Source: Dermacentor variabilis
Lineage: Eukaryota > Arthropoda > Arachnida > Ixodida > Ixodidae
Assembly (NCBI RefSeq): GCF_050947875.1
Contig: NC_134573.1
Coordinates: forward strand, 66,431,315-66,495,314
Direction: 5' to 3'
Length of the DNA stretch: 64,000 nt
The notes beneath the pieces were generated by a model. The model was not told the DNA's origin, made no database searches, and was given only the letters and a program-made list of their open reading frames with translations. Position 1 is the stretch's first letter. Every line of letters starts with the position of its first letter. The translations under genes and the position numbers were made by a program. Positions 26,427-64,000 of this stretch are shown in pieces.

Positions 26427-26669
<243 letters not shown>

Positions 26670-35183: not shown

Positions 35184-35187
<4 letters not shown>

Positions 35188-35871: not shown

Positions 35872-35872
35872 A

Positions 35873-35911
<39 letters not shown>

Positions 35912-35914
35912 ATA
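35872..35914. repeat. (AAAT)n array
   Basis: About ten tetranucleotide units within the minus-strand Penelope-like fragment; possibly the tail of another insertion. Confidence 0.9.
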
Positions 35915-35990
35915 GAAATTTCGAAGCAAATTGAAGTGGCGTCGTTTTGTATTCTGTTTTTCTGAAGTTTCGAGTTATCGCAAATCGGCA

Positions 35991-36479: not shown

Positions 36480-36607
36480 ATCTGTGTTTTTATAATACGA
36501 CAATTGGTTGCCAGGCGGCGCTATGTGGTCGCCTTCCTTTTCTGCGCCTTGGTCTCGTTGAAATGGCCCAGTCATGAATCAATGAATGAATGAATCAATC
36601 AATAGCC
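36480..36607 (+). mobile_element. LINE 3' UTR fragment with (AATGA)/(ATCA) tail
   Basis: The phrase 'ggttgccaggcggcgctatg' then 'ctcgttgaaatggcccagtc' ends in 'aatcaatgaatgaatgaatc' at 36577-36604. It has the look of a CR1-like LINE 3' end with a simple-repeat tail. No ORF part is visible. Confidence 0.45.
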
Positions 36608-38128: not shown

Positions 38129-38157
38129 ACGCGCGCACAGTTTACCTGTGCGCGCGT
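38129..38157. repeat. Perfect 12-bp GC-rich hairpin
   Basis: Arms 38129-38140 (acgcgcgcacag) and 38146-38157 pair exactly around a five-base loop, directly before a long direct repeat. Confidence 0.8.
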
Positions 38158-38272
38158 GCCCTGTAGTACCCGCACAAGCTCTCCATGACGTCAGAGAGCT
38201 TCACGGCATCTGCTCGGATTTAGTTAATTTCTTTCTAGAACGGCTCTCACTCGATGACAGTGAACATTGGCT
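38157..38272 (+). repeat. Direct repeat, copy 1
   Basis: Matches 39443-39545 ('tgccctgtagtacccgcaca' start; 'ttagttaatttctttct' near the end) with about seven mismatches over the first 80 bp, then a short gap and 'gacagtg.acattg'. Confidence 0.75.
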
Positions 38273-39442: not shown

Positions 39443-39545
39443 TGCCCTGTAGTACCCGCACAAACTCTCCATGACATCAGAGAATTTCACAGCATCTGCT
39501 CGGCTTTAGTTAATTTCTTTCTGGTAAGGACAGTGTACATTGCAT
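39443..39545 (+). repeat. Direct repeat, copy 2
   Basis: Second copy, 1.29 kb downstream of the first and in the same orientation. Confidence 0.75.
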
Positions 39546-39748
39546 TCTAAACGAACCAAGAAGCGAATTTATCAAGTTTCAATAACTTTTACTGAAGCAC
39601 AGTGGCCAAAATAAAAGAAATGAAATTAGTTACGTCCCACTGACCTTCAAGCGCTAGAGTTTCGAAGCAAAATAACGGCAATACAGTTTTCAAAAGGAAT
39701 ATTTATTCAACCTAAAATAATTTAGTGTTTCTTTGTTGCCCCTTTATA

Positions 39749-41060
39749 TAGGGTGTGCCGACTCCAAGGTTTACATATATGAAAATTCCACGTAGATATG
39801 CAGAACCAAGGTAATGTTGTTTGCTGTCGTTAGGAGATACTCAGATTATTTCTTGTATTCCACCTAATTACATAATTTGTCTTCATAAATTATTCCATTT
39901 CTTAAATACAATTAGATGAAAAGTGTCAATGAGAAATTGTAGAGCAACATGAAAAACTTCCAATACAGCTTTCTGTTGCTCAATACGTGCTACAGAAAAG
40001 TCTTTTTTTATGAGCGTGAAAGAAGCCCACGAAGAGACGCAAATCTCTTCGAGCGCCTGTCGCGCGGCAATTTTGCGTGTATTCGTGGGCTTTCACGCTC
40101 GAAAAACATTTTTATGTAGCAGGCACAGAGCATCACAAAACTGTACTGGGAGTTTTATTGCGCCAGTAACTATATGAACACTCCAGGCGCATTTATGACG
40201 TCGCCGTCGCCGTGATGTTTCGTATGAAGTCCGAAGGCGATAACACCATCGCCGCGTGCACTACGCTGTATGTGCGGGCGAAAGCGCGCGAGGGAGCCGA
40301 CGGTCGCGGCTCAATCTCGCCCGCGCGAAGGAGAGGAGAGCGGTGATGTTGGCGCACCGTCTTGCGTCTCGCGCGATGCGCCCAACGTTGCGAGGCGTCG
40401 AGGGAGGGGAGAGAGAGGGGACAGCGTTCAACCCCCGGGGCTACCGCGTATGTGGTGGCTGCGCGCAGTCGCGCGACCGTATTTTGAGAGCGACCTCCGT
40501 TCGGGTCAGAGTCTAGGTACGTCGACGACTCGCAGCTTTGTGCGCGCTGTTTGTTCTCGGCCCTCAGATTGCTTTGAAGCGATAGATAGCACGAAGATCA
40601 CTTCGCTTGGTGCTGCTGCCGCGCTTCCTCACGCCAGCGTTTCTACAGCGAGTGTCTGCGTTCATACAGTGTAGTGTGCTCATGCTTGCTGTGCACGCTG
40701 ACACCATGCTTGTAATTTAATTAGCAATAGAATGTTTACAAGTTCATAAGGACGATAAAAGTGCTATCCATACGTCGTACGGCTCTCTACTAATTTGCTA
40801 TCGCAATCGATAATTCGCCCTTCAAGGTAAACTGCGACTTTTTTGGTGTTGGTCTGCAATTTTCTCATTGACACTTTTCATGTAATTATATTATTTGAGA
40901 AGTTGACTGATTAATTAAAACAATTGTTTAATTAGACGGAATCAAAAAATAATTGGAGTATCTCCAAGTGTCGGCAAACAACATTGGTTTGGCGGTTCTG
41001 CCCAGCTACGTGACATTTGCATATATTTAAATCTTGGCGCATGAGAGTTGGGACATCCTA
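39749..41060. mobile_element. Tc1/mariner-style MITE with long terminal inverted repeats and a nested insertion
   Basis: The ends are 'tagggtgtgccgactc' and, reverse-complemented from the right, 'taggatgtcccaactc', each flanked by TA (39747-39748 and 41061-41062). About 210 bp at each end pair as inverted repeats, and both match the element at 45838-46388. The right arm is split: it breaks at about 40156 after 'ggagtttt' and resumes at about 40839 with 'tttttggtgttggtctgcaa'. Between lie about 680 bp of different, GC-rich sequence. There is no transposase, so it is non-autonomous. Confidence 0.8.
40157..40838 (+). repeat. GC-rich interspersed repeat inserted into the MITE
   Basis: Its composition is sharply different from the AT-rich host arms. 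It begins 'ttgcgccagtaactatatga' and ends 'aaactgcgactttttt'. I recall closely similar sequence as a frequent tick repeat, but no second copy lies in this window. Long open frames here (40256-40674) have no recognisable domain. Confidence 0.55.
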
Positions 41061-41199
41061 TATATCGTAAAATAGGTGTTTTAAAGTGCAACAGGCAATG
41101 TATCATACAACTGCAATAAGTTAAACTCTCGTGTAGTATGTTTGCAAGAAAAATAGCTTTTAAAACGAATGATTCACATCATAGGCATTGAAAAACACG

Positions 41200-41440
41200 G
41201 GGAATGCGGGAGACGGAACTTCAAGACGATGATCAAAACGAGAACAAGACGAAAGCAGGAACCAATGTTTCGACAGGTGGCCTCGCCATTTTTAAGGCAG
41301 CATATGCCCTTCTCGGCACCGTATATATAGGCAAGCTTCTTCTAAAGGGGAGAGAGGGTGAGGTGAGTGGGCGAGGTGACGACCGAGGGTGTGTTAGCGG
41401 CAAGGGTGTAGAATTGAGAAGGATGTGCTCCTCGACGTAA
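41200..41440 (-). mobile_element. C-terminal tail of a Penelope-like GIY-YIG element
   Basis: The minus-strand reading gives 'RCREGHMLP' and 'ATCRNIGSCFRLVLVLI', parallel to the tail at 34830-34720. At the nucleotide level the two regions share 'gcatatgc.cttctcggcac' and 'agcttcttctaaaggggaga'-type phrases. Confidence 0.65.
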
Positions 41441-41831
41441 AGGAGGAAATTGTGGTAGCACCGTTGTGTCAGCCGGTCGACGTATCACTCTAGGTTCCTC
41501 CTTTCGTGGAAGTGGACTTCGCGACGGCGGCGGGCGTTGAGGGGAGGGGGGGGGGGGACAATTTGCTTCACTGGAGGTCAATGAACTTTCGTCTCTCTGA
41601 AAGAAAGAGAGAATAAAAGTAGCAGCACAAGATGGTGCTCGTGGAAAAATAAAGAATACATAATTATATAAACGAAAGAAAGGAACGAATGAAAGAAAAG
41701 GGAGGCGGGGAGGTTGGAATATTCTTGACAACCCAATAACAAAAAAGGGAAAAAAGAACAAGCAGCACAATAAAAAAATAGCTAAGTGCTGTTGCCGATA
41801 GTTGGAAATAGGAAAAAAAGGAGTGCACATG
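41441..41831. other. Low-complexity sequence between inverted Penelope-like tails
   Basis: Purine-rich with a ten-base G run near 41548-41557 and many AAAG units; no gene recognised. Confidence 0.4.
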
Positions 41832-41910
41832 TCGCCTTGAAGAATGCAAGTACACTTGCCGAAATGATGGTTCCTGCTTTCTTCTTGTCCACGTTTTGCA
41901 AATCATGGGC
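41832..41910 (+). mobile_element. Penelope-like tail fragment in opposite orientation
   Basis: 'cgccttgaagaatgcaagta' then 'gatggttcctgctttcttct' is the plus-strand version of the tail found on the minus strand at 41200-41290 and 34720-34800. Confidence 0.6.
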
Positions 41911-42002
41911 CGGTATGGCAACTTTAACTCACTATACTTTGCATTTGCAATGTGGCATGAACGAAACTTTTGAGAACATTGTGAATTGATCGCAAGGTCG
42001 TC

Positions 42003-42856
42003 GATTGTACTGTCGCGCGAAATGCGCGTACCATCAACTGTGCAAAAGTAAAATACGTTGTATTTCACTCTCGCAGGAAACATATTGATACTGCAATTCT
42101 TAACCTAACCTTGAACAATATTCTTATTCAACAAGTCCCTTCTTTCAAATACTTAGGGATCATTTTTGATGAGAAGTTGTACTGGCATGAGCAAGTGCAG
42201 AATGTATGCGCAAAGGTAGCCTATGGATGCTATACTCTAATAAAAGCTCGCCAATATTTTCCACAGGCTATACTTCGTACACTGTACTTTTCACTATGTC
42301 ACTGTCACATCAGTTACTGCCTGGATTCATGGGGTGCTACGTACACTAGATATATAAAACCTCTAGAACGACTCCAAGAGCGAATGTTGAGAGTCATAAG
42401 CCACGATCAATCTATGCGTAACATTTTTCAATCGCAACGCGTTCTTTCAGTTCCGATGTTGCGCGACTAAAAGATTGCTGTTTCATTCAATAATATAACT
42501 AATAGAAACTTGCCTATTCCTGTTTATCTATTTTCCGTTCCTATATGCAATACGCGTCATGCCTCAAAAGGTAACTTTAACCTGCTCAAATGTTGCAACG
42601 TTGGTAGGGAAAGATTAATAGAATTTAATGGAACTAAAATTTGGAACATGATCCCCCTTGAAACAAAAACTGCATGTAATTTCGGCTTAGCATGTAAGTC
42701 ATTTTGTCTGTCTATGCAAGACCTGTGGACTTACGAGTCTGTTGACAGACATGGCTGAGATTTATGCTCACTATCTGTTCCTTACGTACTATACTTATAT
42801 ATACTTACTATACTTATATATGCGCATGCATATGTGTATGTATGTGTATGTATGTG

Positions 42857-42946
<90 letters not shown>

Positions 42947-43116
42947 TGTATATGTTTTTTAATTTCTTTTTCTTTTTATTCTCTAGCTGACTTGTGCAAA
43001 TTTGTTGTATATTGCACTGGACCGGCCATTAGCCACATTAGGCTATTGGTCCAAATATTTTTGTACGTATATTTCTGATGTTCTTGAAAATAACGTTTCA
43101 ATTTCAATTTTAAGAA
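42003..43116 (+). pseudogene. CR1/jockey-like LINE, C-terminal reverse transcriptase region and 3' UTR
   Basis: One frame from about 42003 encodes the part after the catalytic palm: 'INCAKVKYVVFHSRRKHID', 'VPSFKYLGIIFDEKLYWHEQ', 'LRTLYFSLCHCHISY', 'LERLQERMLRVI'. After one in-frame stop at 42468-42470 it continues with 'NRNLPIPVYLF' and 'TKIWNMIPLETK' up to a TGA at about 42756. These match the SFKYLG..LD, LL.IYYSL..SHL.YG and LQK.ALR.I blocks of the family. A long TA array (42852-42944) lies in the 3' UTR, and the copy ends near an ATTTCA-type tail 'gtttcaatttcaatttt' (43099-43115). The palm domain is missing and one stop is present, so it is inactive but not very old. Confidence 0.8.
42852..42944. 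repeat. (TA)n array within the LINE 3' UTR
   Basis: About 46 TA units preceded by GTAT units. Confidence 0.97.
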
Positions 43117-44030
43117 ATGTTAAAGATACAAAGTCAACAAATAGAACGTCGTAACCAATGTTGCAATACATATATTAGCTATCAAATATTCCTGATTCAT
43201 CGAGAAACTGCATTATCTCATGTCCTGTATTGTGCAGTCTAAAGGCCACCAGCATTTACTCGAGTGTAATGATAAAAAAAAAAAAACGAGAGAGAGACAG
43301 CGCTGAAAAATAGCGTGCACATTTTCACCTACAAGCATGGACGGCTACTTCGCGGTGATAGTATCCGAGTAGACGAACATATCTTGTCGCACGAATCGAA
43401 CTTTGCATTCTTCGAGAATGAGCAGCTCACTATATTTCCCCATCCTCTCAAAAGCGCTTTACGCGACTTATGTACATGGCTTCAGGGAGAAAGCGAGCCT
43501 GGTTCATGCCGCCTGCAGTGACGATCCGTGCCTGTCGTCACTGCGAATTAACGAGAGCACGTGAAACAGGCTTGCGAAAGCGTCACTTCAGGTGTCAGAG
43601 GCTCGGCTCGGGTCTTTCATCCCAAAGAGCGAGCTTGGACTCCCAGGGAGGGCTGAGACACTGGCTAGAAAGCGGACCTGGAGCGTCTGATGCGGTGAAA
43701 ATACATCGCGTACAAACGCAGAGGCCCGGACGAGCCGATTGCGCACGCTGACAATGAGCACGGCACGTATACGGGGCGGCGCACCCTGAACGAGAATTCA
43801 CAGCGCGGTGTGTTTCTCGCTCGTCCGCCTTGTACTCACTGTCACGTCGGATAGGACCAGCTGCCGCGGTAACGGCGAGACATGTTTACGGAGCACGGGT
43901 GTCGCAGAATAAACCGAGTCGCCTCGGTGCTTGGGAGCGCTGTTCGGAAGCACGTGGTGCCCACGTACGCCTACGTACAAAAATGCGTAAGCTGTATAGT
44001 GTATTATGTGTCTATTTGGGCCCGTTGGTA
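43117..44030. other. Unrecognised sequence
   Basis: A run at 43274-43286; frames near 43470-43801 on both strands show no domain. Confidence 0.35.
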
Positions 44031-44039
44031 TGTCACAAG

Positions 44040-44120
44040 TATGTACACGGTTGCGCATAAAGGACACAAGAAAGGACACACGGCCTTGGGCGTCCCATCG
44101 TTCTTTCTTGTGTCCGTATC
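44040..44120. repeat. Imperfect hairpin
   Basis: 'aaaggacacaagaaagga' pairs with 'ttctttcttgtgtccgtatc' across about 30 bp. The layout (ggacacaagaaag arm) resembles the hairpins at 12.3 and 15.4 kb. Confidence 0.5.
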
Positions 44121-45835
44121 CTCTGTGCGCCGCTCTGTACATGCTGTAGGTCAACGTTGTCTTGGAAAATAGCGTAATCGTCCGCGACGTCAGTGGCTGG
44201 TGAGGCTCTGCCTCCGATGTTGCACATGGTATGTTCTACGCAACGGCGGTGCACATTTTAACTGTCTTCGCTGTGAATGTGACTTCGAAGGTCGACTTTA
44301 TTTAGGAAGAACGGTAAACGTCGACTTTTATTCCTGGTGGCACACTTCCGTAGGGGCCCATCGGGCCGTTTGCCAACAAATGCTTCTGAATAGTGAGATA
44401 CATAAAAATACAAACGGATACGTTTGAGGGTCCCTCATCCAATAATTTACAGTGACACAGAGCACCTCAACACAGGCGGGTCCCGAGACAAATTTCGCAA
44501 GTCCGGCCACACCCTCAGTCGAGGTGCGCCTCGGAAGCTCGGAAGGACACAGCCGGTGCACGTAATAAGATGCGCTCCCTAAAGGCAAAAACGATAGAAA
44601 AACAGATAGGGCAGCCGCAGTCGTAAGCGGGACAGGTTTAACGAATCTCGGCTCAAGGCGGACGCGAGCGAAGCGCAGCCGGACAGATGCGAAAGTGAGC
44701 CAGTCACTCAGTTCAACCTGGCACCTCGGGAACGCGGGTAATGAACGAGCTAGCGCTGCAAAGTCGGCTTTCCCGGTACGATGCGACTGTACCGCGCGCA
44801 GTGGAGGCGGAGAGGGCAGATGGCCTTTTTGGCTCCTTCCGCTGCCTCCTAACCTGCCTCCTTTCCTTCCTTCTCTCTTCCTTCTTTTTCGTCTTTCTTT
44901 TTTCTCGCATTCTTTTCTTGATTGTTTGCTTCGTTCGTTCTCTTGCTTTCGTTTCTTTCATTTTTCTTTTCCTTTCCTTCCTTTTTTCTTGTTTACCCCC
45001 CTTCTTTATCTCCTCCTTTATTTTTTCTTCTGTATTTAGGAATTCTGCTGCTCGCGCCCAGGCACTCTCTAAACACAGATGAGTGCCGGTGTGGTGCCGC
45101 CTCCACTTCGTCTGTGCACCTTTATTTCCACAGCTTACACGACGCCGAAGCCTGGGAAGGGTGCGAGGGCCGCCGTTCTCCCGGGTGCATGCCTAGAAAG
45201 AAAATAAGAAAAAACGCCTTCCTATTTTCAAGCTTCTATTCCAGCGAGGAAAATTAGCGTCCTTCCTCGTGGGTAACTATAAGCGTCAACAACGCGAGTA
45301 TTGTAGGCGCGCCCGACGTATACGTGGGCTTCTATTTACGTCGCACGTTTCTTCCGCCGTCACCGGGCGACGCGACGCACCGCAGCCCCCCTCCCCCTCC
45401 CTCTCCCCAACGGTTGCGCTCCGACACGTCAACTCTTGAGCTGATGTTTTCTTCTCTCATGCACGTCGGCTGAGACAGGAAAGGACGGGAATTCCTCGGG
45501 AACGCTTGAGGTTCAGAACGTTTAAACTAAATATTCTTGAAGGCGAGATGAAGTAGTCAGAACCTAGTACAGAGGTAGTAGGTAATGATCGTGATTAATG
45601 GGGTTTCAGTGGCGCAACGGCTACTGTGCGTCGCTGAGACGAGGGGACGGGTGTATTCGTGCGTCATCACATTTTTCCCAGAATGAATAAAATATCCTTA
45701 CGGCGTTAATTGATCGCTTCCATTGGCTCACGTGAATGAAAAAGGCAGGTTCAGTGATGTGACTTACAAGCCGCACGTTGAGGTATACCACGTGGATGGA
45801 TGGCTCTTGCACAAACGATTATTCTACAGAGTGCA
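44121..45835. other. Unrecognised sequence with a T/C-rich tract
   Basis: 44860-45045 is strongly pyrimidine-rich (TTCC/TTTC units). No gene was recognised. A tRNA-like phrase near 45610 is too degenerate to call. Confidence 0.35.
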
Positions 45836-45837
45836 TA

Positions 45838-46388
45838 CAGGGTGCCGCACGTAACTTGAACGAAACATTAAAAAGATGCAAATGACACGTAGCTGAAGAG
45901 AACCAAGGTAATGTTGTCTGCCGTCGTTTGGAGACACTCAGATTACTTTTTTTCGTTACTCTTAATTAGATAACTAGTCTTCAATAATTATTCAATTTAT
46001 CAGATATCATAATTAGATTAAAAGTGGCAATGACAAAATTGTAGAGCAACATGAAAACTGCAGTACAGGTTTCTGTTGCTCGATACGTGCAACATAGAAG
46101 CGTTTTTACGATCGTGAAAGAAGCCCGCAAATACATGCAAGACTGCCGCGCGACTGGCAGCTGTAGGAGTTTTTCATGTCGTTCTACAATTTTCACATTG
46201 ATACTTTTGTCTAACTATAATATTTGAGAAGTTGATTAATTAATTAGAACTAATTATTTAATTATGTGGAATGAAAAAATAATCATCTGAGTATCTCCAA
46301 GTAATGGCAAACATTACCTTGGTTCTGTACAGCTACGTGGCATTTGCATATCTTCTAATGTTTGGATCAAGTTACATGGGACACCCTG
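45838..46388. mobile_element. Tc1/mariner-style MITE, complete
   Basis: The element begins 'cagggtgccgcacgtaactt' and its reverse-complemented right end begins 'cagggtgtcccatgtaactt'. Both ends are flanked by TA (45836-45837, 46389-46390), the usual Tc1/mariner target duplication. About 230 bp at each end are inverted repeats of each other, leaving a short centre. No coding capacity is present. It is the same family as 39749-41060. Confidence 0.85.
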
Positions 46389-46390
46389 TA

Positions 46391-46559
46391 GAGCATATGG
46401 GTAGCGACATAGACAGAAGTTAGATGCTGGCTGAACTCTCTGTCGTGATAGTGTTATTTTTATTACGATTACGTTTTTCAGCGTTGCCAACTTTTCGTCG
46501 AGCGTGTCGCTTAACTGACACAATGAAGTCACTCCATTTTCGTTAAATCTGTTCCAAAG
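46391..46559. other. Unrecognised sequence
   Basis: Nothing recognised. Confidence 0.4.
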
Positions 46560-47120
46560 TCGCTAAATTGTCGCTACAACTGTCGAACGATACCAATGCG
46601 ATCGCATTATATGCTGACTTTCGCCACTTTGGTGGCACTATCGTCAGGCCTAAACACGTGGGCCCATCCCGATGGCAGTGTAGTTTGTCAGGGAAGAAGT
46701 TTGGGCGTGTTGGTAGTTGAATCGTAAACTGGGATACATAGCGGAACAACGCCACCAGGACGAAGCCTCCCGAAGGACGAAGCCGTCCCGTGTTCTTGCT
46801 TCGTCCCTGTATCGTTCTTACGCTTTGTATCCCAGTTTGCGAGTGTAGTTTGTATCCTTCTTTCCGATCCCGAATGGATTGTCGCGTGGCTTGGCGTCTC
46901 AAAGCACTAACTGACAAGAGTGAGGAATGCGAGAAAGTGGCACGTGACGCAGTAGCCAGAGGTTTCGAAGAACGGCTTTGCCAAGAACGTGCGAGGGAAC
47001 GTAGCATAACGGTGAGAGCATTCGGATGCTGTGCTGGAATGAGAAGGATGAAGCGCACCATGTGTGGCGCAATTCTTCGTGGTATCAAACTGTAGGCGAA
47101 CTTCGCCCACATTAAGAGTC
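46560..47120. repeat. Interspersed repeat region, including copy B of the coding-like repeat
   Basis: 46880-47120 matches 29611-29985 as described there and reads EKVARDAVARGFEERL in one plus-strand frame. The preceding 300 bp ('aacacgtgggcccatcccga' near 46650) resemble a common tick repeat from memory, with no second copy here. The 189-residue minus-strand frame over this region has no recognisable domain and is probably a shadow. Confidence 0.45.
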
Positions 47121-51421
<4,301 letters not shown>

Positions 51422-51512
51422 ATTTTTAATGGTTTTCACGTGTCTGGTGCTAAGTGTTTTTTCAACAATCAAAGACTTCGAACTATTAGCCGGTGCCATA
51501 CTGCTGCGAATG
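51422..51512 (+). CDS. KCNQ: KCNQ (Kv7) potassium channel exon encoding the S1 membrane segment
   Basis: This 91-bp internal exon lies between a strong acceptor (pyrimidine tract, tttcag) and a consensus donor (gtaagt). The first base completes a codon; 30 codons follow and the exon ends on a codon boundary. The peptide begins FLMVFTCLVLSVFSTIKDFE. Vertebrate KCNQ2-5 exon 2 is also 91 bp with the same phases and encodes S1 with a nearly identical core (CLVLSVFSTIK). KCNQ subunits form slow voltage-gated K+ channels (M-current) in the plasma membrane; S1 is the first helix of the voltage sensor. The last ten residues (LLAGAILLRM) diverge from vertebrate sequence. No neighbouring exon was found in the window, which fits long tick introns. 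A processed pseudogene is ruled out by the splice signals. Confidence 0.85.
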
Positions 51513-52759
51513 GTAAGTCGCCTCCCTTTGCACAGCACAATTTTCTGTGCGAGCACTTATCATCTACGGAAGTGTAAATGAGTCCTTAATACAGCATGCT
51601 ATGTCCAAATGAGTGCTGAGGTTGTGTCACCTATTCTGCAAATGAATATGCACCATTCGTCAGTATATTTCACAACCACATCAAGACCCAAATATGCAGC
51701 ACCTGAGCTGAATTAACAATGATGAACAAAGAAATTATCAATCTGAAAAAAAAAATTTTAGACAAGAGTGCTTATCCTAAGCAGCTCCTTCTGTTTTGTT
51801 AAAAGCAGTAGTAATTTCATGTCTTGTTAGCGTTATTGATCCGCATTTACCGTAAGGAAATAATTGCTAAATCTTCGACGCAGGAAATTACCATCATTTA
51901 CAAATTTGCATATCGGAAATGTATGTAAATAAGTTATGGTTTCTAATTTAAATATGACAGCAGACATAATCGAAACAATGTAATATTTATAAGCCTTTTC
52001 GTGTGCTCGGATACTGTTTTAGTAAGTTTTAAATCGAGAAACGGAAGAGACATGAGGCACAATGGGCAGGTAATCTTGGTCCCTGCTCTATCGCATGGTC
52101 TCATTTGCTTTTCGCATTTAGTTCTTAATACTTTAAAGAAACGTCCTGCATAATATTCGTGTGCATTGCTGCTTTCATTGCTTGTAAAAAGATAGCTAAA
52201 GAATTTGCCAATCCTTACGTCCTTACTATTTGAACTCACCGTGCTATAAGTACTCCCACATTGCGGCAAGCCGACCTTATATACGCGTACATTGGTGTAA
52301 CCAAAATATCTGTCATTAACGTTACTTACCATACCGATTCTAATCATATTCATACTGTGAATTAGAAGACCACGTCTATACCCAGGTATGGATGAGACAG
52401 AAAAAATTGATTCCGCCCTGCTATAGAGCCTTCGTGCTAAGCGTGGTCGTCATTGAATGAAAAATGAAGAATATATTTCGCGGTGAACCCTCGTTTGCAG
52501 ATCGCTAATTTCTAGCTCAGAGAAATTCGCTCGTGACGGCGCCAGCACCACTCGATGAGCGGCCGCTTTCTGCGCAATCTTGTAGTGCCGGCTGATGCGA
52601 CCTTCACTCCAGAAGGCGGCGATGGAGCGACTGAGGTTTCTCCGGTCAAGCAACCTGCTTGAACGACTTTGACACTCCTGTGTTCCTTTATCTGTGTGCG
52701 CTTCAAATTTTTTTCCCCGTTGCCTCTCTGTTCATGTGCGTGCACTTTTTAAATATCTT
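51513..52759. other. Probable KCNQ intron, downstream side
   Basis: AT-rich; no exon resembling the KCNQ S2 exon (expected to start near 'EIV.VV.FG.E') was found. An acceptor-like 'cgcag' at about 51880 is followed by only a short unrelated frame. Confidence 0.45.
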
Positions 52760-52863
52760 TCTGTGTCCCCTTACCCCTTCCCTAATGCAGGGTAGCAAAC
52801 TGCATATCTATCGTCCGGTTAACCTCCCTGCCTTTCTCATCTCTCTCTCTCTCTCTATCTCCC
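52760..52863 (+). mobile_element. LINE 3' tail, 5'-truncated copy
   Basis: 'accccttccctaatgcaggg', then 'ccggttaacctccctgcctt', then a CT run. It matches the 3' UTR at 329-514 and lies within the probable KCNQ intron. Confidence 0.8.
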
Positions 52864-53044
52864 TCTTTACGTACACAGTGTTTTATAAAGGCAGATACGT
52901 AAGATCAGAAAGTATAATGTCATGATAAATCAACCAGCACTGCTATGCTGACATAATTATTTACGTGTACATATATGTTTGACATGTCAGTGTTGTACAA
53001 GATATTCAATTAGATAATTTCCACTTTAATCAGGGCAACACATG

Positions 53045-54415
53045 ACTGCAATCAACCCAAAGAAAAGGCTGGATACAGGAAGGGATACTATGAAATGGAT
53101 CACATGTTTGTTATCAATTATGTAACAGAGAAATCTGCGAAGTGTAATCAACCTCTCTATATGGCTTTCATAGAATTTGGAAAGGCATTTGATTCAGCAG
53201 AAATACCAGGAGTCATAAAGGCATAGCGTAATCAAGGAATACGAGAGGCATACGTGAACATTTTGGCAAATATCTACGAAGATTCCACAGCAACCTTGGT
53301 TCGCCTCATCAAAAATAGGAATTTACCTATCAAGAAAAGCTTAAACAAGGAGACACTCTCTCCAATGCTATTCACTGTGTGCTTGGAAGAAGTATTCACG
53401 CTATTAGAATGGGAACGTTTAGGAGTGAGGATCAACAGCGAATATCTCAGCAACCATCGGTTTGCAGGCGATATTATGCTATTAAGTGACAATGGGGAAG
53501 AATTACAACAAATGATTGAGGACCTTAACCGAGAAAGTGCAAGAACGCGGCTGAAGATTAATACGCCGAAGACCAAGACGACGTTCAACAGCCTGGAAAG
53601 GGAAGGAGAATTCACTAAGCCTAAGCGCTCCGCGAGCTCGTACCTTTCTACGGTGTCTTGTGCTTGCACATGCGTTTGGTGTGAACCTTGCGGATTTCCG
53701 TAAATAATAAAGTCAGTTAAGAGTCCAGCATCGTCCTGCGCACTTCTTGTCTCTGTGTATGTGTTTAGTTTGATGGTTTCATTCCTTGCTCAGCAAGAAA
53801 TCAGGATTGTTAGTCAGCCTGTAGGGTACGAAAAGGGGTGCGTTTATTTAGGTCACTTACTCACAGGAGACCCGGATCATGAAGAGGGAAATTAACAGAA
53901 GAACAAATATGGGTTGCTGTGCATACGGCAGGCATTACCAAATACTGCCTTTGAGCTGACAACTGTCGTTGGAAAAGAAAAGCGCACAATTTTTGCATTC
54001 TACTACTGCTAACATTCGGGGCGGCAACTTAGAGGTTAGCAAAGAAGCTCGAAAACAAGCTAAGGACTGTCCAAAGAGCGATGGAACGAAATATGTCAGC
54101 GGTAACGTGAACAGGTAGGAAGAGAGTGGTGGCGATCAGAGAGCAAACGGGGATAGCCGATATCCTAGTTGACATTAAGGGGAAAAATGGAGCTGGGCAG
54201 GCCATCTAATCCGTAGGGTAGAAACTAGCTGGATCATTAGAGTTCCAGCATGAGTGGTCAGAGAAAAGAAGCGCTGTCCATCGTGGCAGAAAACTAGGTG
54301 AGGTGATAAAATTAGGAAATTGGCAGGCGTAAGTTGGCATCAGCTAGTGAAAGATGTGGGTAATTGAAGAGTGCCTTCGTCCTGCAGCGGACATAAAGAT
54401 AGGCTGATGAAGATT
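53045..54415 (+). pseudogene. RTE-type LINE reverse transcriptase, decayed, with an internal insertion
   Basis: Homologous to the RTE copy at 63121-64000. In order: 'AGYRKGYYEMDHMFVINYV' (about 53070), 'LYMAFIEFGKAFDSAE' (palm motif A, about 53160), 'RLIKNRNLPIKKSLNKETLS' and 'PMLFTVCLEEVF' (motif B area), 'HRFAGDIMLLSDNGEELQQM' (motif C) and 'RTRLKINTPKTK'. Motif C reads AGDI where active enzymes have ADD, so the catalytic centre is broken; an in-frame stop lies at 53224-53226. At about 53620 the homology stops; it resumes at about 53808 with 'VYLGHLLTGDPDHE' (after frameshifts) and reaches the family's end near 54415. The intervening 190 bp are foreign. Confidence 0.85.
53622..53807 (+). 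other. Foreign insertion inside the RTE copy
   Basis: This stretch has no counterpart in the intact RTE copy. It contains 'gtaaataataaagtcagtta' with an AATAAA-like signal followed by a pyrimidine-rich end ('cttcttgtctctgtgtatgt'), reminiscent of an LTR R-U5 region or a retroelement 3' end. Clear target duplications were not found. Confidence 0.4.
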
Positions 54416-54529
54416 ATTTGTTTAGACCTCCGGTCGCGTTGACCCCACGAAGGTGAAATAAATATCTAAATTTCATTGGCGTGGCTACGGACAGCGTAAT
54501 GTCACGTAAATAGTGCGACCGCTGCGTAT

Positions 54530-55540
54530 GGTCGTACCGGTTATGGTACGACTTTATAGCTATATAACTAATAACAAAAACCTATAAACGTTATAACTAC
54601 ATAACAAAAAGTAAAAAAAAATGAAAAAAAAATCAAATGCAGTAGACGGCAGAAGATAACATTAAAGAGCAGCTGCAAAAGCTGCGTTATCAAGTAGGCT
54701 AATTACGGCTGCAGGTAGTCGATTCCATTCAGAAATGAATTTTCGGGAAAAGAAAAAGTGATTTTGAAAAGATTCGTTCTACAACCATATTCCGTGACCC
54801 TGAGCTCATGATCTATTCATGTAGATATGTAATACGGCAAAAAATATACTTATTGTGGTATATTCCTATTTATTCATGAAAATATATTGTTACAAAGCTT
54901 CAAGCGTAAGGCTTGTCTTCTTTTTTCTAAGTGCGCCTATTCTAACGTTCGTTTTCTGGTAGTAATGTTGAGCTTTCTTGCGTAGTTACCTAATACATAC
55001 CGTGCTGTTATATTTTGGACTCTCTCAAGTTTCTGCCTCAAGTCTCGGTCGGTATCCGTGGGAGCGTCCATATGATGCACCCCATACTCTAAAATTTGTC
55101 TGACAGAGCTTTTCTTCGGAGAATTACGGGCCTGCTGGGGAAATAGCTTCGTGTCACACCATCAGAATCCTAGCACTTGGCATGCCTTTGCTGCAATGAA
55201 ATTAGCTTGCCTGGGCCAACACATAAATGATGTGAAAAATATCCCTAAGTACTTATACTCGGAAAGAGTCTACAGGGAATAACTGGATAGATTATATACT
55301 ACCGCTGGCATATGCTTCTTCGGGAAACGCATGTGAACAGTTTTTTGAGCGTTTATTCGGATATGTGATTCTCTACAACTAGTTTTCTGTTTCAGCTAAA
55401 TCATTTTGTAAAATAAAGGTATCAGCAACGCTTGTAATTTTTTTAAATCATAAGCAAACAGTCTGACGTAAGGAGCAATGGTGTCGGGAAGGTCATTTGT
55501 AAATATCAAAAACATAAAGGAACGGGCCCCACCTCACCAC
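54530..55540 (-). pseudogene. CR1/jockey-like LINE reverse transcriptase, decayed
   Basis: Read on the minus strand from 55540: 'SFMFLIFTNDLPDTIAPYVR', then 'LFAYD' where active enzymes have FADD, 'INAQKTVHMRFPKKHMP', 'SEYKYLGIFFTSFMCWPRQA', 'VRQILEYGVHHMDAP', 'KLERVQNITARYVLGNYA', and finally 'CRTNLFKITFSFPENSFLNG' near 54750. The order and spacing are those of motif C through the C-terminus of CR1/jockey-like enzymes. Several stops and at least one frameshift are present, and catalytic motif C is lost. It belongs to a different subfamily from the copies at 1668 and 42003, judged by its end blocks. Confidence 0.8.
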
Positions 55541-57060
55541 ACAGAAATAAAAGCAAAAATTAGAATGCATATCAGTGGAGCAAAACAAAGCGACGTGTGG
55601 CATGACAACATACAGCACAGTACTTTGAATCAGCACTTAACCTTCGGTGCGGAACCGGCAACATAAATGCATAAAAGGTGGAACCTTCGCTTGAATAGTC
55701 ACCAATCTGCATTAGCAGAAGAAAATTCGTGAGTGGCACAGTCATGTTGGTGCCTGCTTCACGCCCGCATGCTGTACCAATCTAGTCCGCCTTTTTTACA
55801 CTGTAGACATGGCCTTCGTCTACCCAGGGTTCGCTGACCAAGGGTCGGCCCTCCCCCAACAAGGTGGCTGGGCACGCATAGTAACAGTAGTCAGAAGAAC
55901 TTCAGTTTGGCCTAGTTGGTGTTTACTGCATAATATATTGACCGCAAATAAAGACGGGGACAGCGGAAGAGAACACAAAAACAACGCGAGCGGTAGTAAT
56001 AGTCATCCTGGTTTCCCTTTTCTGCCCTGAATACTGGAGTCTCCGATGTGTGAGGCTCAGCGCCAGTGCTGCCATTTTGATGAGGTAGACGCGTGGCGGT
56101 GTGATAGATAACATGCAGAAGCAAATGTGTGAGTGGTGCAGTCATGTCGGTGCCGGCCCCACGCCCCGATGTGCCAAATTTTGCAGAATATTTGCAAAAT
56201 GATGACACTGCCTTTTTTCCCTCAACATGTTGCTATAGCTAGACGTCTTGTCAATGTTATGCACGGGCAAGCAGAAGCACCACTAAAAAACTTTGGAAAG
56301 GAACGACGGCACATGAAAAAGGTCCAGCGGTTGCTTACTTCGTCAAAATTGCAAAATTCCGCGAATGCTTTGAAGTATAAGAGGGACGGCAATATGACTC
56401 GGCGTTACCAGCTCCCGTTGACGTGAGTGCAAGTTTATTACCAGCGGAGGATCTCGTTGCCTCTCCCGCGGTAATAAACTTACAGCGCACTTGTAATAAA
56501 CTTGTGGATGTACTTCCGCAATTTAAGGATACTTCTCATTGACCTCGAGGGTCAGTCAGACACCACTGAGAAAGAACCGAAAAACCACGGAGGAGACACC
56601 CAGACGGAATCAATAAAACCCGTAGCGTGTAGAGCCGCATGAATGTGAAGCGATCCAAGAGCAAGGAAAGAAAATGCTCGAGGATGACGTTACCAGCCAT
56701 CAAAAGCCCCTTGGACATAGCCAGTAATGCTGTGTTAAAAGAAAGACGATGGTCTACGCTGTTGTGCTGACTGCCGCAAGAATGACTGGGTGAGAAAGAA
56801 AGACGTATACTCAATACCGTGTATCGACGATTCTCCCGACAGTCCCAGGCATGCCAGCTATTTCTTGCCGATGGACCTAGAAAGTAGATATTAGGAAATA
56901 GAGGTCTATAAGATGGAGAAAAAAACGGCTTTCATAACGCCTGACGCGCTTTAGGAATTCAAAGTCAGGACTCTGAACTGAAGTGAAAGTGAGCCCGGTC
57001 TTTGGGCTCAGCTCCACCGCCCTTTCATATATAGACTAAAGGATGTGGCTTTGCCAGGCC
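55541..57060. other. Repeat-bearing sequence without a recognised gene
   Basis: Phrases around 55721-55790 ('gtgagtggcacagtcatgtt') recur diverged at 56116-56180 ('gtgagtggtgcagtcatgtc'), giving direct repeats about 395 bp apart. Near 56427-56505 'gtaataaactt' appears three times, once inverted, making a small foldback. A plus-strand frame at 56133-56426 shows no domain. Confidence 0.4.
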
Positions 57061-57400
57061 TGTTACGAATGGACGCCTGGGTTATAGACCTGCTGACAAG
57101 CGGAGTATTCCAGCGGACGGAGTCCTGCAAACAGTTCGACCATTCTGATTGGCCGGGATAAGGCCACGGAATTCCCTTGTCTAGGGACCTAGGGAAAACG
57201 AGGGCTTAAAAGCGGAGATCTTGAGTGCGCTCAGACATGTAGTGTGCTCACGTGTAAAGTGTCCCGACATATAGTGTGTTCCAATATCCATGGAGCCAGT
57301 TGCGAGATTTAAATATGTAGACTAAACCTGTTTCTCGTCTCCTTCAACCTCATCTCTTGATCCACAAGCAAGCCTCGGCAATAAAGACAGATGACGGTGT
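57061..57400 (+). mobile_element. Candidate solo LTR
   Basis: It starts with 'tgttacgaatggacgcctgg', a TG start like that of Ty3/gypsy LTRs, and holds a TATA-like 'gcttaaaagcgg' near 57203 and an AATAAA at 57380-57385. No partner LTR, primer-binding site or target duplication was found, and the right end is not defined. Confidence 0.3.
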
Positions 57401-58260
57401 GGTTTCGCTTATATTATTCATCTTAGTGCGATGCCTCGCTATATCGCACGCCAGCGACCATGTTTTAGACGCTCTGGCGGTCTCAGGCGACCCACGCTCA
57501 AAGGCATCAGACCCGGGTCCACCAAAAAAATTGGATTCCAATCCAAGCTGGGGTTGGACAGGCAAGCTGTATATGACACCTATAACTATCACCCATCGCG
57601 ACGTAGCTTGAAATTTTTCACATGGCGGCATTCACACGCCCTTTACCTAACTATTAGCCTAAGACGTCTGAACGCTCTGCGACTTGGCCTGCGCCACGGT
57701 ACTTCATGAACCTACAAAGAGTGGACCAGACACAACAGATATGGTGTTAACCGCACTTTCGCTGCACCTCGTGTTCACGCTATTCTTCAGGAGCCGTCAC
57801 TGTACGTAGCCTTACCATAGCACTGTCATAACCTAAATCATGCAGTTGCTAGGCGGGTTCTTCTTTTACACACGAAAGTGCAGCTGCGTCGCTGCCTGCT
57901 TCGTATGCCACAGTGGCCGCTTCCCGGCAACTGCAGCTTATGCAACCGTAATGTTTACCCGGAAAGGCTTGCGACGAACACTGTGCGCCAAGGCGAGCTT
58001 TCTGGTTCCTTTTTTTCTTTCCCACGCGCAGACGGCGCTGCCGCTAGAAGGCAAGTTTGCTTTTTTTTTCTTTCCACTGCACGGCCGGCACCCCCGCAGC
58101 CGTGAATGCGCGGAGGTGAGTGCCATATTATAATGCGGCAAGGAACCAAGCGGCTCAGGCGGCGCGTGCCTCCTGCTGATTCGTTGAGTTTTTTCCCTCG
58201 GACACGACAAATGAATTGGCGGGTAGAGGCATACAGCTTCGCCCTAAAATGTTCAATTGT
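57401..58260. other. Unrecognised sequence
   Basis: T-rich runs near 58010 and 58060. Frames on both strands show no domain. Confidence 0.35.
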
Positions 58261-58467
58261 CCGGTGAACTGCTCTGTAGGAGGACCACACTAGTAATGCG
58301 AAGACGTGGCTTCGTATCCCACCTGCCGCCACTTTCTTCATCCCGTTTTATTTATTTATAATTTCTGCATTTCAATAAGATTAGCAAGTGACACCCCCTA
58401 AGCTTTCTTTGTTGTTTTGAGTTTAAAAACAACAAAGAAAGCTTAGGGTGTGTTACTTGCTTATCTT
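58261..58467 (+). mobile_element. tRNA-derived SINE copy with a tail-to-tail foldback
   Basis: A degenerate tRNA-like head (about 58262-58330) keeps the anticodon arm 'tagtaatgcgaagacg' and the T arm 'gtggcttcgtatcccac'. The body (58331-58400) resembles that of the SINE at 16.5 kb. Its distal part, 58377-58418, is repeated in reverse at 58426-58467 with about four mismatches across 42 bp and a seven-base spacer. Confidence 0.65.
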
Positions 58468-58644
58468 ACACTAACTGTACACTGTGTGACACAGGATTCG
58501 ACGGTGACACTGGGTAACACTAGGAACGCCTGCGCAGACTGCGTGACAGTGCCCACACGCAGAAACAGTTCGTGTCTATCGCGTGTACATGTGTGTGTGT
58601 ATGTTGTTGGATATTTTCCCTTTTCCTTTCTTTTCTCTCTCACC

Positions 58645-58741
58645 TAACGCATCCCTTTGCCCCTCCCCCAGTACAGGGTAGCCAACTGGAGATAATCTCT
58701 GGTTAACCTCCCTGTCTTTTGTTTGGCTTCCTCTCTCTCTC
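58645..58741 (+). mobile_element. LINE 3' tail, 5'-truncated copy
   Basis: 'tgcccctcccccagtacagg', then 'tctggttaacctccctgtct', then a CT run. It abuts the downstream end of the minus-strand gag fragment. Confidence 0.8.
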
Positions 58742-58887
58742 TTGAGTTTCAAGAACAGGGCCTCTTGATTCTCTTTCTTCTCGTCACCGTCGATAATGTG
58801 GCGACGGCGAACGGCTCTAGCCTCTGGTGGGTGCAGAAGGGCATGCTATGTCGGGTACTGTGGCGGGCGTTGATTGTCATTGCGGCG

Positions 58888-59926
58888 TTAGTACAACGTG
58901 GAGCGTGAAAAAAAGAGCTGACGATAAGTGCAATAGCGGTGAATGTGCCCCACGCCGCTACAATGGAAGTGTATGCGCTTGTAGTCGTCAGGCGTTCCCC
59001 ATTTAACCGGATCTCGATAGCGTGGGAACGTCGGCAGCCGACGATGAACGGAGGCGCTAAGTCTAATCGAAGGGCGGGTTACGGAGCACATGGGTTGAAT
59101 GCCTGCGTTTGCCAGTTCTTTGCGGACAACTGCCTGGGTGAGGGAAGTCGTCGATTGAGCATGCTCCGAAGGGAGCACGAAAGAAGATGGCGACGCAGCC
59201 TCGATGTCGCGGCGCACAATGCGGACAACGCTATCCGTAGTGGATGACCGGAGGGACGACCACGTAGCAGCGGTGTGGGGAAGCCACACGAACTGTCTGG
59301 CGATGCGACGGCTCTTTGCGGTTTCGGAACGCCTCCGCTCGTGGATAGTTTCGTCACCCGTCGGGCAGTCTATGAAAACGAGCAAGTGAAGCGCATCTTC
59401 GGCGATGGCTTTCAGAACATCCATCACCTTGTCAGCTTCGGGAATACTGGAATCGACGCGGCGGCGAAGAGCTAGGACATCAAGAATGTTCTCAAAGTAC
59501 GGCTCTGTAGCTGTCTGAGCCCGACAGGATAGGTCTTTCGCAGCGGCGCACTTGCCAGCAGGTAGCTTGCCAAAGGGGTGGCGTAGTTTTTCATTACATA
59601 AGTCGCAACTTGTCAGCCGTTATTTGCGTGCGTCATACCAGATGGGTGGTGGTCCCTGGAGGCAGAAGACACGATTTGCGAGCGTCACCGTCGGGTCCCA
59701 CAGGTTGTGTGCAGCGATGCGTTCGTACATGCCAGGCCATTCTTCGACGTCGACTCTGTCGGTGCCTTCGCCGGAGAAGGTGCCAGGGTCGCGCGTGCGG
59801 TTCAAAACGATTGACGGTACGGCGGCGTCGCGGATGTTGACGACGCGGGTGCTGACGCCGTGCTTGACGTAGGTCGTCTGTCAGCATGATAGGACGGTCG
59901 AGCACAAACCCGCTGCGGAGTTCCAT
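58888..59926 (-). pseudogene. Ty3/gypsy-like Gag polyprotein, nearly full-length, broken
   Basis: Translation on the minus strand starts at an ATG at 59924-59926 (MELRSGFVLDRP). A frameshift between about 59880 and 59830 leads into 'RTRDPGTFSGEGTDRVDVEE' and 'MYERIAAHNLWDPTVTLANR', the capsid-like core common to tick gypsy elements. One in-frame stop lies at 59620-59622. The reading then continues through 'EADKVMDVLKAIAEDALHLL' to an Arg-rich linker and a zinc knuckle at about 58930-58970 (HFHCSGVGHIHRYC). There the first Cys of the CX2CX4HX4C motif is replaced by His. In such elements Gag packages the RNA into particles. No protease or reverse transcriptase follows; the minus-strand sequence runs into a plus-strand LINE tail. 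With one frameshift, one stop and a lost zinc ligand it is inactive. Confidence 0.8.
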
Positions 59927-60130
59927 CTTGCGCAGTGTACCCGCACCTCTACCAAAAGTGAAATCGGCCGAGATATAAAGGTTAAACGAGACCGTGTTTG
60001 GGGCTATTCAGGAGAAATGGCCGTTACGGTCAGTGTGGTGCAACCTTAGGCTCGTCCCACTACGTCGTCTCTTTCGTCTCATCGGTGATGGTCTTCTTTG
60101 TCGTTCTCGTGACACCGTGACAATATATAC
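59927..60130 (-). mobile_element. Leader region upstream of the gypsy-like gag
   Basis: This 200-bp stretch lies where the LTR end and primer-binding site should be. A phrase 'gtcacggtgtcacgagaacg' (minus strand, near 60120-60100) may mark the LTR/leader boundary. No complete LTR was identified. Confidence 0.35.
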
Positions 60131-61599
60131 AGAAAGGTACGATATTTCGTATTTTGTGTCCTGAGGGCCAATTATAATTCAGAGACAACTTTACAAACTT
60201 ATCACTTCAGCTTTGCTGAGGATGCCTTGGTTCTGTGCAGAGTGGCCGGATGTGTTCGAATTTACTTATGCCCAAGAAATTGCAAGGCAGCTGTGAATGT
60301 TGGTTCTGCAGGGTGCCAGGTCGCTAGCCTGGAACAATAGTCTCTTGAACGCATAGTGCCATCGCACTTTATTCACACCGTGTAGACCACTCAACGTGTA
60401 CGTAATTTTCACATTACCAGAATGTTTTACAATGACACCGTAATATTGACCAGTAGTGAAAATACGTGCACTCTGGCGAGAGAAATTTTAATGACAGGTG
60501 TGTAGGGTAGCCGAGCAAAATGTTTGGCATGCAACTGCAAGGTTGTTATAGCGGGTCTTTCCACAAACACTTTAAGATTTAAAAATAGTCGTTTTGTAAT
60601 AAGATGACGGTTCCTGTGGAGGCACGCCATCAGTGGTGGCAACCACGAGGTGACAAGTGCTAAATCGTCACTACGTAACAAAAAATTATTAATTAATTTT
60701 TAAGCTTTAATTTTAGTCGACTCATCGCAATCCGTAAAATGAAGCAAACTCTCCGTAAAAGCCATATAAGCCTTTGGATGTAAAAAAAAAAAAAAAAACG
60801 AGAGTGCCCGTTGATAAGTGGCCCGACAAATTTCGGCTATCAGAACGCGTGAGGAACAGAACTGCGGAGGCTGCAGCAAGCGCAAAGCCGCGCTCCTCGA
60901 AGTGACGTTCTGCAAACGTCACGCAGCAGCGGGCAGCCAGCGCACTGCGATAGCGAAGACTACGGAGCACATAAAGGCTAAGAGGACAACCGTGGGTGGT
61001 CCTGGTTCGATACTCTGTACACATTAGACTGGGTAGAAAGACGTAGAGCGATGAAAGCAGCACAATGAACGTAAAACGCCTACATAAACCGACGGAAAGC
61101 AAGCAGCACTCAATATATCTATAAAGGATGATCCCAAACGTCAGGAACTGAATTAGCGCACTTAAAATAGTCTACTGCATGACGTCCCCTTGGAGGCACC
61201 GTCAGCACTGATTTGAGAGCTGACATTACTGGCAACTGATGACGTGCTAATGGAACGGCTTCTTCGGATTCCCCTTGACAAATTACTGGAACTCTCGACG
61301 AAGGACTCGAGCAGCGGAGAAGCTTTGCTGTATTGAACTCGCTTTTCCGATTATGTGTGTGATGTTACACTGTTCGCAATGTCTCTTTTCTTTTCGAATT
61401 GCTGTGGCTTAATGAGCACGAATGAAGCAACGTTCAGCTGAAGTACGCAGTGTGCTATATGAAAAAAGAAAAGAAGAAGTGGCGTTTGGATAACGTACAG
61501 ACGGCGACGAAAAAGCGTTGGGCAATAGTCTTGAAAGTTATTGTCGAGAAATTTGTTCTCAGAGCGGGTAAAACCGTGCAGCATTTTTCTTTTTCTTCT
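60131..61599. other. Unrecognised sequence
   Basis: A run at 60782-60799. A box-B-like 'ggttcgatac' at 61007-61016 lacks a convincing tRNA fold around it. No gene was recognised. Confidence 0.35.
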
Positions 61600-61665
<66 letters not shown>

Positions 61666-61697
61666 CACTACCACTACCACTACCACTACTACTACTA
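61600..61697. repeat. (ACT)n array
   Basis: About 32 trinucleotide units, the last part mixed with ACC, directly abutting the 5' side of a LINE fragment. Confidence 0.97.
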
Positions 61698-63118
61698 TGA
61701 CCAAATAGATCCGTTTACGGAGCTTTTTTTAGTAGAATGCGCAAATACATTCCCCGGTGTATATACCCACTGGTTCTCGTCTGAACTCATATTTGCCCTA
61801 AAACATAAAGATCGCGTCCAACGAAAATGTAGAATTGCTGTGCCTAATGAGTGAAGAGAAGAAGTACGCTTTTTTTCGGGCTCTCTGTAAACTCCTCCGT
61901 AATCGGGATCATGACTCACACATTGCATTCTTTTTAAAAGAGCCCCTACGATCAGCCGGCGGAACTTTGGAAGTGCATCCGTAAGCGCTCGGATATACAT
62001 GCGGAGTGCTTTCGCCTGCTTGACTCTACAGGAGTAGAAATCCAAGCAGTCGCAGATTGTTTTGCTGCCCGTTTCTCATCATTATATCAAGCTGGAGGTC
62101 GCAATGCTGGAGTCAGTCAGCAGCACACGATGGTTGCTACATATAGTGCTGTGTTGTTTGATGAAAAGCTGATCCACGAATGCCTTAAAGCGCTTGAAGC
62201 CTTCCCCATCCTGTGGCCCTGGTGGCATCCCCTCCGAAATTTTTAAAGCTTATGACAGTATATTTTCTTCGGTATTGACATCTATATTTAAAAACACTTT
62301 CGCTGGTTCCACTTTCCCTCCCATGTGGAACACTTCTCGCGTTTTTCCTGTAAAACCAATGTCTCGAAATACCTCCCGATGTTTCTTCTCTGTGCCTCGT
62401 CTAAGCTTTTTGAGCTTGTTCTTCGCTACATAATGTGTTTTACTGTGATGAACTCACTCTTTCCGAATCACCATGGATTTCTCACGGCCGCTCAACTATC
62501 ACAGATATCGTGAGTTCATGATTGACACCATTTACTTTGACCTGAGCAAAGCTATTGATGTAGTATGCCACTGACTGCTTCTGATTAAGCTTACGCACGG
62601 TTATGTTGACTCGTCAGTTGTCAATCTCTTGCGCCGTTATCTTCTTGATATATTATGTTATGTTAACGTCAATGACCAAACGTCTTTTTACATGGCAGCT
62701 AGCGGTGTCCGTCAAAGATCAGGATTAGGACAACTAATAAAAAAAAATTATTAATGACGTTCATTCAGTTATTCGGAACACTATTTTCCTTCTACATTCA
62801 GATGAGATCAAAATTTTAAAGGAAATTCGCATTGTTGATGACTGTCGCACCTTGCAGTCGGGCCTGCTTTCCTTCTCTAAATGGTGCAAAGATAATAATC
62901 TTTCCTTGAATACAGCTAAGATCAAACTAATAACTTTCACACGCAAAAGAGCAAGCCTATCCTGTTTCTTATTTTGTAAATTCTGTAGCGTTGTGTAACG
63001 TCTGTGAGATAAATGATCTTGATGTACTATATGATGCAACCTTACACTTTTCTACTCACAGTAAACGCGTTACTATGCTGTGTATGCACTCTGTTGGCTC
63101 TGTTTGCACACTATCGAG
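61698..63118 (+). pseudogene. Jockey/CR1-like LINE reverse transcriptase, decayed
   Basis: Blocks in order: connector 'VYTHWFSSELIFALKHKDRV' (about 61760), 'KKYAFFRALCKLLRNRDHDS' (about 61860), 'LWKCIRKRSDIHAECFRLLD', 'CGPGGIPSEIFKAYDSIF' (fingers, about 62212), 'FDLSKAIDVVCH' (palm A, about 62538), 'AASGVRQRSGLGQ' (motif B, about 62697), 'LLHSDEIKILKEI' (motif C, about 62793), 'LQSGLLSFSKWCKDNNLSLN' and 'LDVLYDATLHFSTHSKRV'. Motif C has SDE in place of ADD, motif B has lost the QGS core, and several frameshifts and stops occur. It is an inactive copy that stops abruptly at about 63118, where RTE sequence begins in the same orientation. Confidence 0.85.
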
Positions 63119-63120
63119 GG

Positions 63121-64000
63121 AATCACACTATCAATCAAGTGATAGAGAAATGTGCAGAATATAACCAACCCTTATATATAGCTTTCATTGATTACGAGAA
63201 AGCGTTTGATTCAGTCGAAACCTCAGCAGTCATGGAGGCATTACGGAATCAGGGTGTAGATGAGCCATATGTAAAAATACTGGAAGATATCTATAGCGGC
63301 TCCACAGCCACCGTAGTCCTCCATAAAGCAAGCAACAAAATCCCAATAAAGAAAGGCGTCAGGCAGGGAGATACGATATCTCCAATGCTATTCACAGCGT
63401 GTTTACAGGAGGTATTCAGAGACCTGGATTGGGAAGAATTGGGGATAAAAGTTAATGGAGAATACCTTAGTAACTTGCGAATCGCTGATGATATTGCCTT
63501 GCTTAGTAACTCAGGGGACCAATTGCAATGCATGCTCACTGACCTGGAGAGGCAAAGCAGAAGAGTGGGTCTAAAAATTAATATGCAGAAAACTAAAGTA
63601 ATGCGTAACAGTCTCGGGAGAGAACAGCAATTTACAATAGGCAGCGAGGCACTGGAAGTCGTAAGGGAATACATCTACTTAGGGCAGGTAGTGACGGCGG
63701 ATCCGGATCATGAGACGGAAATAATCAGAAGAATAAGAATGGGCTGGAGTGCGTTTGGCAGGCATTCTCAGATCATGAACAGCAGGTTGCCGTTATCCCT
63801 CAAGAGAAAAGTATATAATAGCTGTGTCTTACCAGTACTCACCTACGGGGCAGAAACCTGGAGGCTTACGAAAAGGGTTCTACTCAAATTGAGGACGACA
63901 CAACGAGCTATGGAAAGAAGAATGATAGGTGTAACGTTAAGGGATAAGAAAAGAGCAGATTGGGTGAGGGAACAAACGCGAGTTAATGACATCTTAGTTG
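63121..64000 (+). CDS. RTE-type LINE reverse transcriptase, open to the right edge (3' end outside window)
   Basis: An uninterrupted frame of 293 codons starts at the junction with the preceding LINE and lacks its own N-terminus (no endonuclease). It begins with 'NHTINQVIEKCAEYNQPLYI', then 'DYEKAFDSVETSAVMEALRN' (palm A), 'KKGVRQGDTISPMLFTACLQ' (motif B intact), 'LRIADDIALLSNSGDQLQCM' (motif C with the catalytic Asp pair present), 'REYIYLGQVVTADPDHETEI', then 'RMGWSAFGRH' and 'SCVLPVLTYGAETWRLTK'. The order matches RTE-clade elements, which reverse-transcribe their own RNA at nicked chromosomal targets. It is the best-preserved transposon protein in the window; codon integrity suggests a young, 5'-truncated insertion or a recombinant. 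Confidence 0.9.

Follow-up and report, generated by a model that had tools for sequence, protein, structure and literature searches.

Among the closest described systems are the human KCNQ genes, for which published splice-variant coordinates locate the exon boundaries around the first transmembrane helix (S1). KCNQ1 c.386+1 lies in the donor of intron 1 (PMC7216698), c.387-5 belongs to the intron 1 acceptor (PMC5606890), and c.477+1 and c.478-2 (E160) flank intron 2 (PMC13320819), so that exon 2 comprises c.387-477, that is, 91 nt. For KCNQ2, c.387+1 (PMC6625149) sets the donor after codon 129; no coordinate for the exon 2 acceptor was found in the literature searched, and nothing on KCNQ exon 2 appears in the passages of PMC2597720 that were examined. 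Among the matches listed in the literature search, nothing was on point for KCNQ exon structure or isoforms in arthropods or, specifically, in ticks.

Here, we analysed a 64-kb stretch of genomic DNA of the tick Dermacentor variabilis (hereinafter, the window), in which a single segment resembles exon 2 of these genes. The tick segment and human KCNQ1 exon 2 are both 91 nt long, start with the same 2+1 codon split and end in phase 0. Codon 129 of KCNQ1 has c.386 as its second base, and residue 130 aligns with the first residue of the tick exon; with PDB chain numbering taken as native, as in all our KCNQ1 and KCNQ2 residue alignments, length, phases and position thus coincide at both exon ends. 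The KCNQ2 donor falls after the codon that aligns with the last residue of the tick exon. The preliminary description of this DNA had given vertebrate exon 2 as 91 bp with the same phases, which holds at both ends for KCNQ1 and on the donor side for KCNQ2. In our judgement, retention of an old intron position is unsurprising. The sequence of KCNQ1 exon 2 has diverged, and the tick peptide matches KCNQ1 only at E values of 0.2-0.7. In KCNQ2, 16 of the first 20 residues of exon 2 are identical to those of the tick exon, with the core CLVLSVFSTIK, whereas the start of the S1-S2 loop differs (FELLAGAILLRM in the tick vs YEKSSEGALYIL in KCNQ2).

Identity of the isolated exon

The segment is open throughout and yields the peptide listed in Table 1 when translated from its second base; translation from the first base gives another peptide. 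The first base is A, and V precedes the exon in the Dermacentor protein, consistent with a GT|A split codon. Pyrimidines occupy 18 of the 20 bases before the acceptor CAG. When both strands were scanned for CAG following at least 16 pyrimidines in 20 bases, with GTAAGT 60-250 nt further on and an open frame in between, this exon was the sole acceptor-donor pair returned from the window. Past the donor, translation in the same frame gives VSRLPLH where the KCNQ protein has EIVMVIW, so that the match extends precisely to the splice sites and no further. The preliminary description, which had reported a 91-nt KCNQ S1 exon encoding the core CLVLSVFSTIK and bounded by an acceptor (pyrimidine tract, cag) and a gtaagt donor, was accurate on all these points.

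Table 1. Features of the window with their positions and strands.
Feature	Position	Strand	Remarks
Inferred part of intron 1	1..51421	+	No KCNQ exon found; assumes a collinear gene
3' splice site of the preceding intron	51392..51421	+	Pyrimidine tract and CAG; assigned by consensus
KCNQ exon 2	51422..51512	+	51422 as third base of a split codon; 30 whole codons follow, FLMVFTCLVLSVFSTIKDFELLAGAILLRM
5' splice site of the following intron	51513..51518	+	gtaagt; assigned by consensus
Inferred part of intron 2	51513..64000	+	No KCNQ exon found; assumes a collinear gene
RVT_1 relative	53083-54170	+	Broken into pieces, the longest 54% identical to the stretch at 63013-63999
RVT_1 stretch	63013-63999	+	Reverse-transcriptase frame, open to the end of the window

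A 303-residue stretch of human KCNQ2, compared with the window by tblastn, scored 37.7 bits at the exon and 22.3 bits at the next place, and none of 100 dinucleotide shuffles of the window reached 37.7 bits (best, 33.9). The KCNQ protein of D. variabilis itself scored 60.1 bits at the exon, again beyond all 100 shuffles (best, 31.6). Pfam assigned no family to the 30-residue peptide alone. Searched against the PDB at E values up to 10, the peptide retrieved 24 distinct sequences, every one of them KCNQ1-5, the best being KCNQ2 (E 1.7e-4). A peptide-anchored protein search, in which 55 of 78 candidates were kept, returned proteins with a KCNQ_channel domain in all 55 cases and not a single non-KCNQ protein. 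Neither the PDB nor the search set therefore offered the better match outside KCNQ that, according to the preliminary description, would speak against the assignment. The S1 sequence is nearer to KCNQ than to other voltage-gated channels, as judged from the PDB matches, the 55 proteins and the identity of all 30 residues to the Dermacentor protein. A protein with an identical exon (P0122) contains the Ion_trans and KCNQ_channel domains and the sequence GYGD. These sequence comparisons confirm the segment as tick KCNQ/Kv7 exon 2, predicted to encode S1 and the first part of the S1-S2 loop. The exon is an ordinary, intact part of a gene that is already annotated in Dermacentor.

We estimate at about 0.96 the probability that, as the sequence indicates, the segment serves a tick KCNQ/Kv7 gene on the plus strand as its second coding exon, spliced with distant exons 1 and 3. 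Under this scenario, a first exon more than 51 kb upstream would be spliced to exon 2, completing the 2+1 split codon (V, GT|A), and exon 2 would be joined in phase 0 to an exon 3 that lies over 12 kb downstream and has the E of EIVMVIW as its first residue. The protein would receive from this exon the voltage-sensor helix S1 together with the first residues of the extracellular S1-S2 loop. We infer that the exon is spliced in D. variabilis and collinear with exons 1 and 3 and that the gene product functions as a channel.

The isolation of the exon, with neither exon 1 nor exon 3 found in the window, could also be accounted for by a lone copy of exon 2 that was duplicated or translocated together with flanking intron sequence and is not used by the working gene. 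However, all 30 residues and both splice sites are intact, there is no second copy in the window (the next place for the peptide scores 17.7 bits vs 60.1), and long introns are a simpler reason for an isolated exon, so we consider such a pseudo-exon quite improbable. Reverse-transcriptase remnants occur nearby (Table 1), as might be expected if the segment were a fragment of a retro-copied, processed pseudogene, but a retro-copy would extend into the residues of exon 3 or exon 1, whereas the match stops at consensus splice sites, which leaves this origin with a negligible probability. Hardly any weight attaches, either, to an open frame arisen by chance or to an exon belonging to another channel or membrane protein: although transmembrane helices are short and hydrophobic, and Pfam recognizes no family in 30 residues, the absence of shuffles reaching the observed scores, the uniformly KCNQ matches in the PDB and the complete identity to tick KCNQ all argue to the contrary.

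Conservation among ticks and the S1-S2 loop

The KCNQ proteins of D. variabilis (P0122) and D. albipictus (P0123), both annotated as 'potassium voltage-gated channel subfamily KQT member 1-like isoform X2', are identical to the exon at all 30 residues, including L at residue 21. In both, V before the exon agrees with the split codon, and no difference is seen within the exon. Such identity by itself points to a tick, most probably a Dermacentor, as the source of the DNA. The alignment with tick KCNQ proteins that the preliminary description proposed as a check gives 27-29 identical residues out of 30 in the other ticks for which the exon is fully covered: 29 in Rhipicephalus microplus (two entries), R. 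sanguineus and three tick-like contigs (P0126-P0128), 28 in Ornithodoros turicata (two entries), and 27 in Ixodes scapularis and I. hexagonus, two further Ixodes entries (P0134 and P0135) starting inside the exon and hence yielding no count. Outside ticks, the identity is 25/30 in Limulus, 24/30 in Tachypleus and 20-23/30 in the nine insect entries examined. The three tick-like contigs (3308, 2808 and 2794 nt) encode 773-779 aa unbroken across both junctions and thus look like spliced transcripts of relatives.

The end of S1 and the start of the loop, LLAGAILLRM, had been singled out as unusual for the family. This does not hold for the tail, AGAILLRM, which is present in 14/14 tick entries, counting the three tick-like contigs, and 2/2 horseshoe-crab entries of the peptide-anchored search; in other horseshoe-crab copies and mites from a further set of entries, the tail differs (e.g., ASAILFRM and ASYILLQM). 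What does stand out is L at exon residue 21, which aligns with position 120 of KCNQ2, in the S1-S2 loop. Only 2 of the 14 tick entries have L here, whereas the other ticks (Rhipicephalus, Ornithodoros, Ixodes) have E (8 entries) or D (4 entries). The codon, at positions 51482-51484 of the window, is CTA, and a change from E to L requires two base changes. Two of the tick-like contigs, P0127 and P0128, share 733 and 734 of 747 positions, respectively, with the D. variabilis protein, yet have E at this residue, so the change to L looks recent and narrow.

First exons of chelicerate KCNQ genes

Protein models from outside the window bear on what exon 2 is spliced to. We compared 13 pairs of entries, chosen by eye, over the 28 residues before exon 2, exon 2 itself and the next 200 residues. 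In 4 of the 13 pairs, from three species (a tick, a horseshoe crab and a spider), the two proteins are split at the boundary. The R. microplus pair (P0124/P0129) agrees at 16/28, 30/30 and 200/200 residues of these three segments, as does a pair of equal-length contigs from Tachypleus (P0137/P0179), and two pairs of equal-length Parasteatoda contigs (P0181/P0188 and P0183/P0189) each agree at 14/28, 30/30 and 200/200. Over their whole alignment, the two R. microplus proteins agree at 676 of 690 positions, with 12 of the 14 differences located before the exon 2 boundary, and the N-termini beyond the aligned part do not align. In six pairs (P0181/P0183, P0188/P0189, P0193/P0194, P0192/P0193, P0201/P0203 and P0130/P0131), the N-terminus is shared (28/28), and the other three (P0185/P0186, P0178/P0201 and P0136/P0184) come from different genes or, seemingly, species. 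Given that the isoforms differ upstream of the boundary and agree from the boundary on, these annotated protein models suggest that KCNQ isoforms of the tick, the horseshoe crab and the spider use alternative first exons.

The second form of R. microplus shares 20/28 residues with Varroa and 19/28 with both a scorpion-like contig and Tachypleus isoform X3, but only 16/28 with the first form of its own gene. Two vertebrate entries in this comparison, out of register by a one-residue indel, were disregarded. A motif picked after the entries had been seen, RT[SN]LLG[KR]P[IL]K, is present in 7 of 127 arthropod entries, namely, six named chelicerates and one further contig; among these seven, P0178 and P0184 seem to be other gene copies. 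The first form of ticks lacks the SLLGKP motif of other arthropods. In a tree of 25 first-exon peptides (49 columns), these seven (b-type) entries are joined at 87/94, with the fork drawn open. Several observations weigh against an old origin of the second form, among them the absence of SLLGKP from the tick first form and the two apparent gene copies. Varroa is as near to the first form of Ornithodoros (20/28) as to the second form of R. microplus. The b-type group includes neither of the Parasteatoda forms, and the two spider forms may accordingly have arisen separately. P0197 is a fused model.

From these gene models, two or more alternative first exons of chelicerates could splice into the same exon 2, and one of them, carrying RT[SN]LLG[KR]P[IL]K, would predate the split of ticks, mites, scorpions and horseshoe crabs; we give this proposal an even chance. 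Each first exon would encode its own N-terminus along with the pre-S1 segment (NFLERPRG...) and the stretch up to S1, such that the choice of promoter would swap the cytoplasmic entry of the voltage sensor, with everything from exon 2 on unchanged. If alternative first exons are indeed used, the N-terminus of a voltage sensor would be under the control of an ancient switch. Among the matches listed in a search of the open-access literature, nothing on alternative KCNQ first exons was found.

Probable introns around the exon, and repeats

In the D. variabilis protein, exon 1 reads RRRRHQIMVHNFLERPRGWRAALYHIAV and exon 3 starts with EIVMVIWF. No KCNQ exon other than exon 2 was found in the window, S2-S6, the selectivity filter and the C-terminal KCNQ_channel domain lying outside it. 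The remaining matches of the D. variabilis protein to the window score at most 28.9 bits, within the range of the shuffles. One tick protein (P0132) scores 30.8 bits elsewhere in the window, the shuffle comparison having been made with the D. variabilis protein. Searches of the window with two forms of tick exon 1 and with exon 3 gave, without shuffles, at most 26.6 bits (a Q-rich stretch), and none of the matches contained NFLERPRG. A second exon 2, such as a mutually exclusive partner, was also considered and rejected, the next place in the window scoring 17.7 bits vs 60.1.

With no further KCNQ exon found in 64 kb, the DNA around the exon is most readily taken for intron. Collinearity of the gene would make the upstream intron longer than 51 kb and the downstream one longer than 12 kb. 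The case illustrates how a single conserved exon of 91 nt may reveal the identity of tens of kilobases of tick DNA that carry no annotation. All four Ixodes KCNQ models examined (P0132-P0135) lack the NFLERPRG first exon; P0134 and P0135 start within exon 2, and P0132 has residues before exon 2 (FRF) that resemble a translated intron end. A very long first intron would explain why none of these models has a proper first exon.

The preliminary description had pictured this intron as full of retroelements. The intron is the best reading, but the repeat content was overstated. Six-frame Pfam scans with X at stops, covering positions 37000-63999, detected RVT_1 only, in two stretches in one frame (Table 1), and an intron full of retroelements is therefore not established.

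Several other features were observed in the window. A tRNA-Leu (CAA) was predicted on the minus strand at 16653-16724 by both ARAGORN and Rfam (37.8 bits) and might be either a gene or a tRNA-derived repeat. An inverted repeat at 1345-1450 and 1562-1667, with 106-nt arms that are 100% complementary, lie 111 nt apart and consist partly of AT repeats, is possibly a young foldback element. Long perfect microsatellites are located at 6714-6972, (TATC)64.8, at 26427-26669, (ATCT)60.8, and at 49805-50049, (TG)122.5. Between the TG tract and the KCNQ exon downstream of it lie about 1.4 kb.
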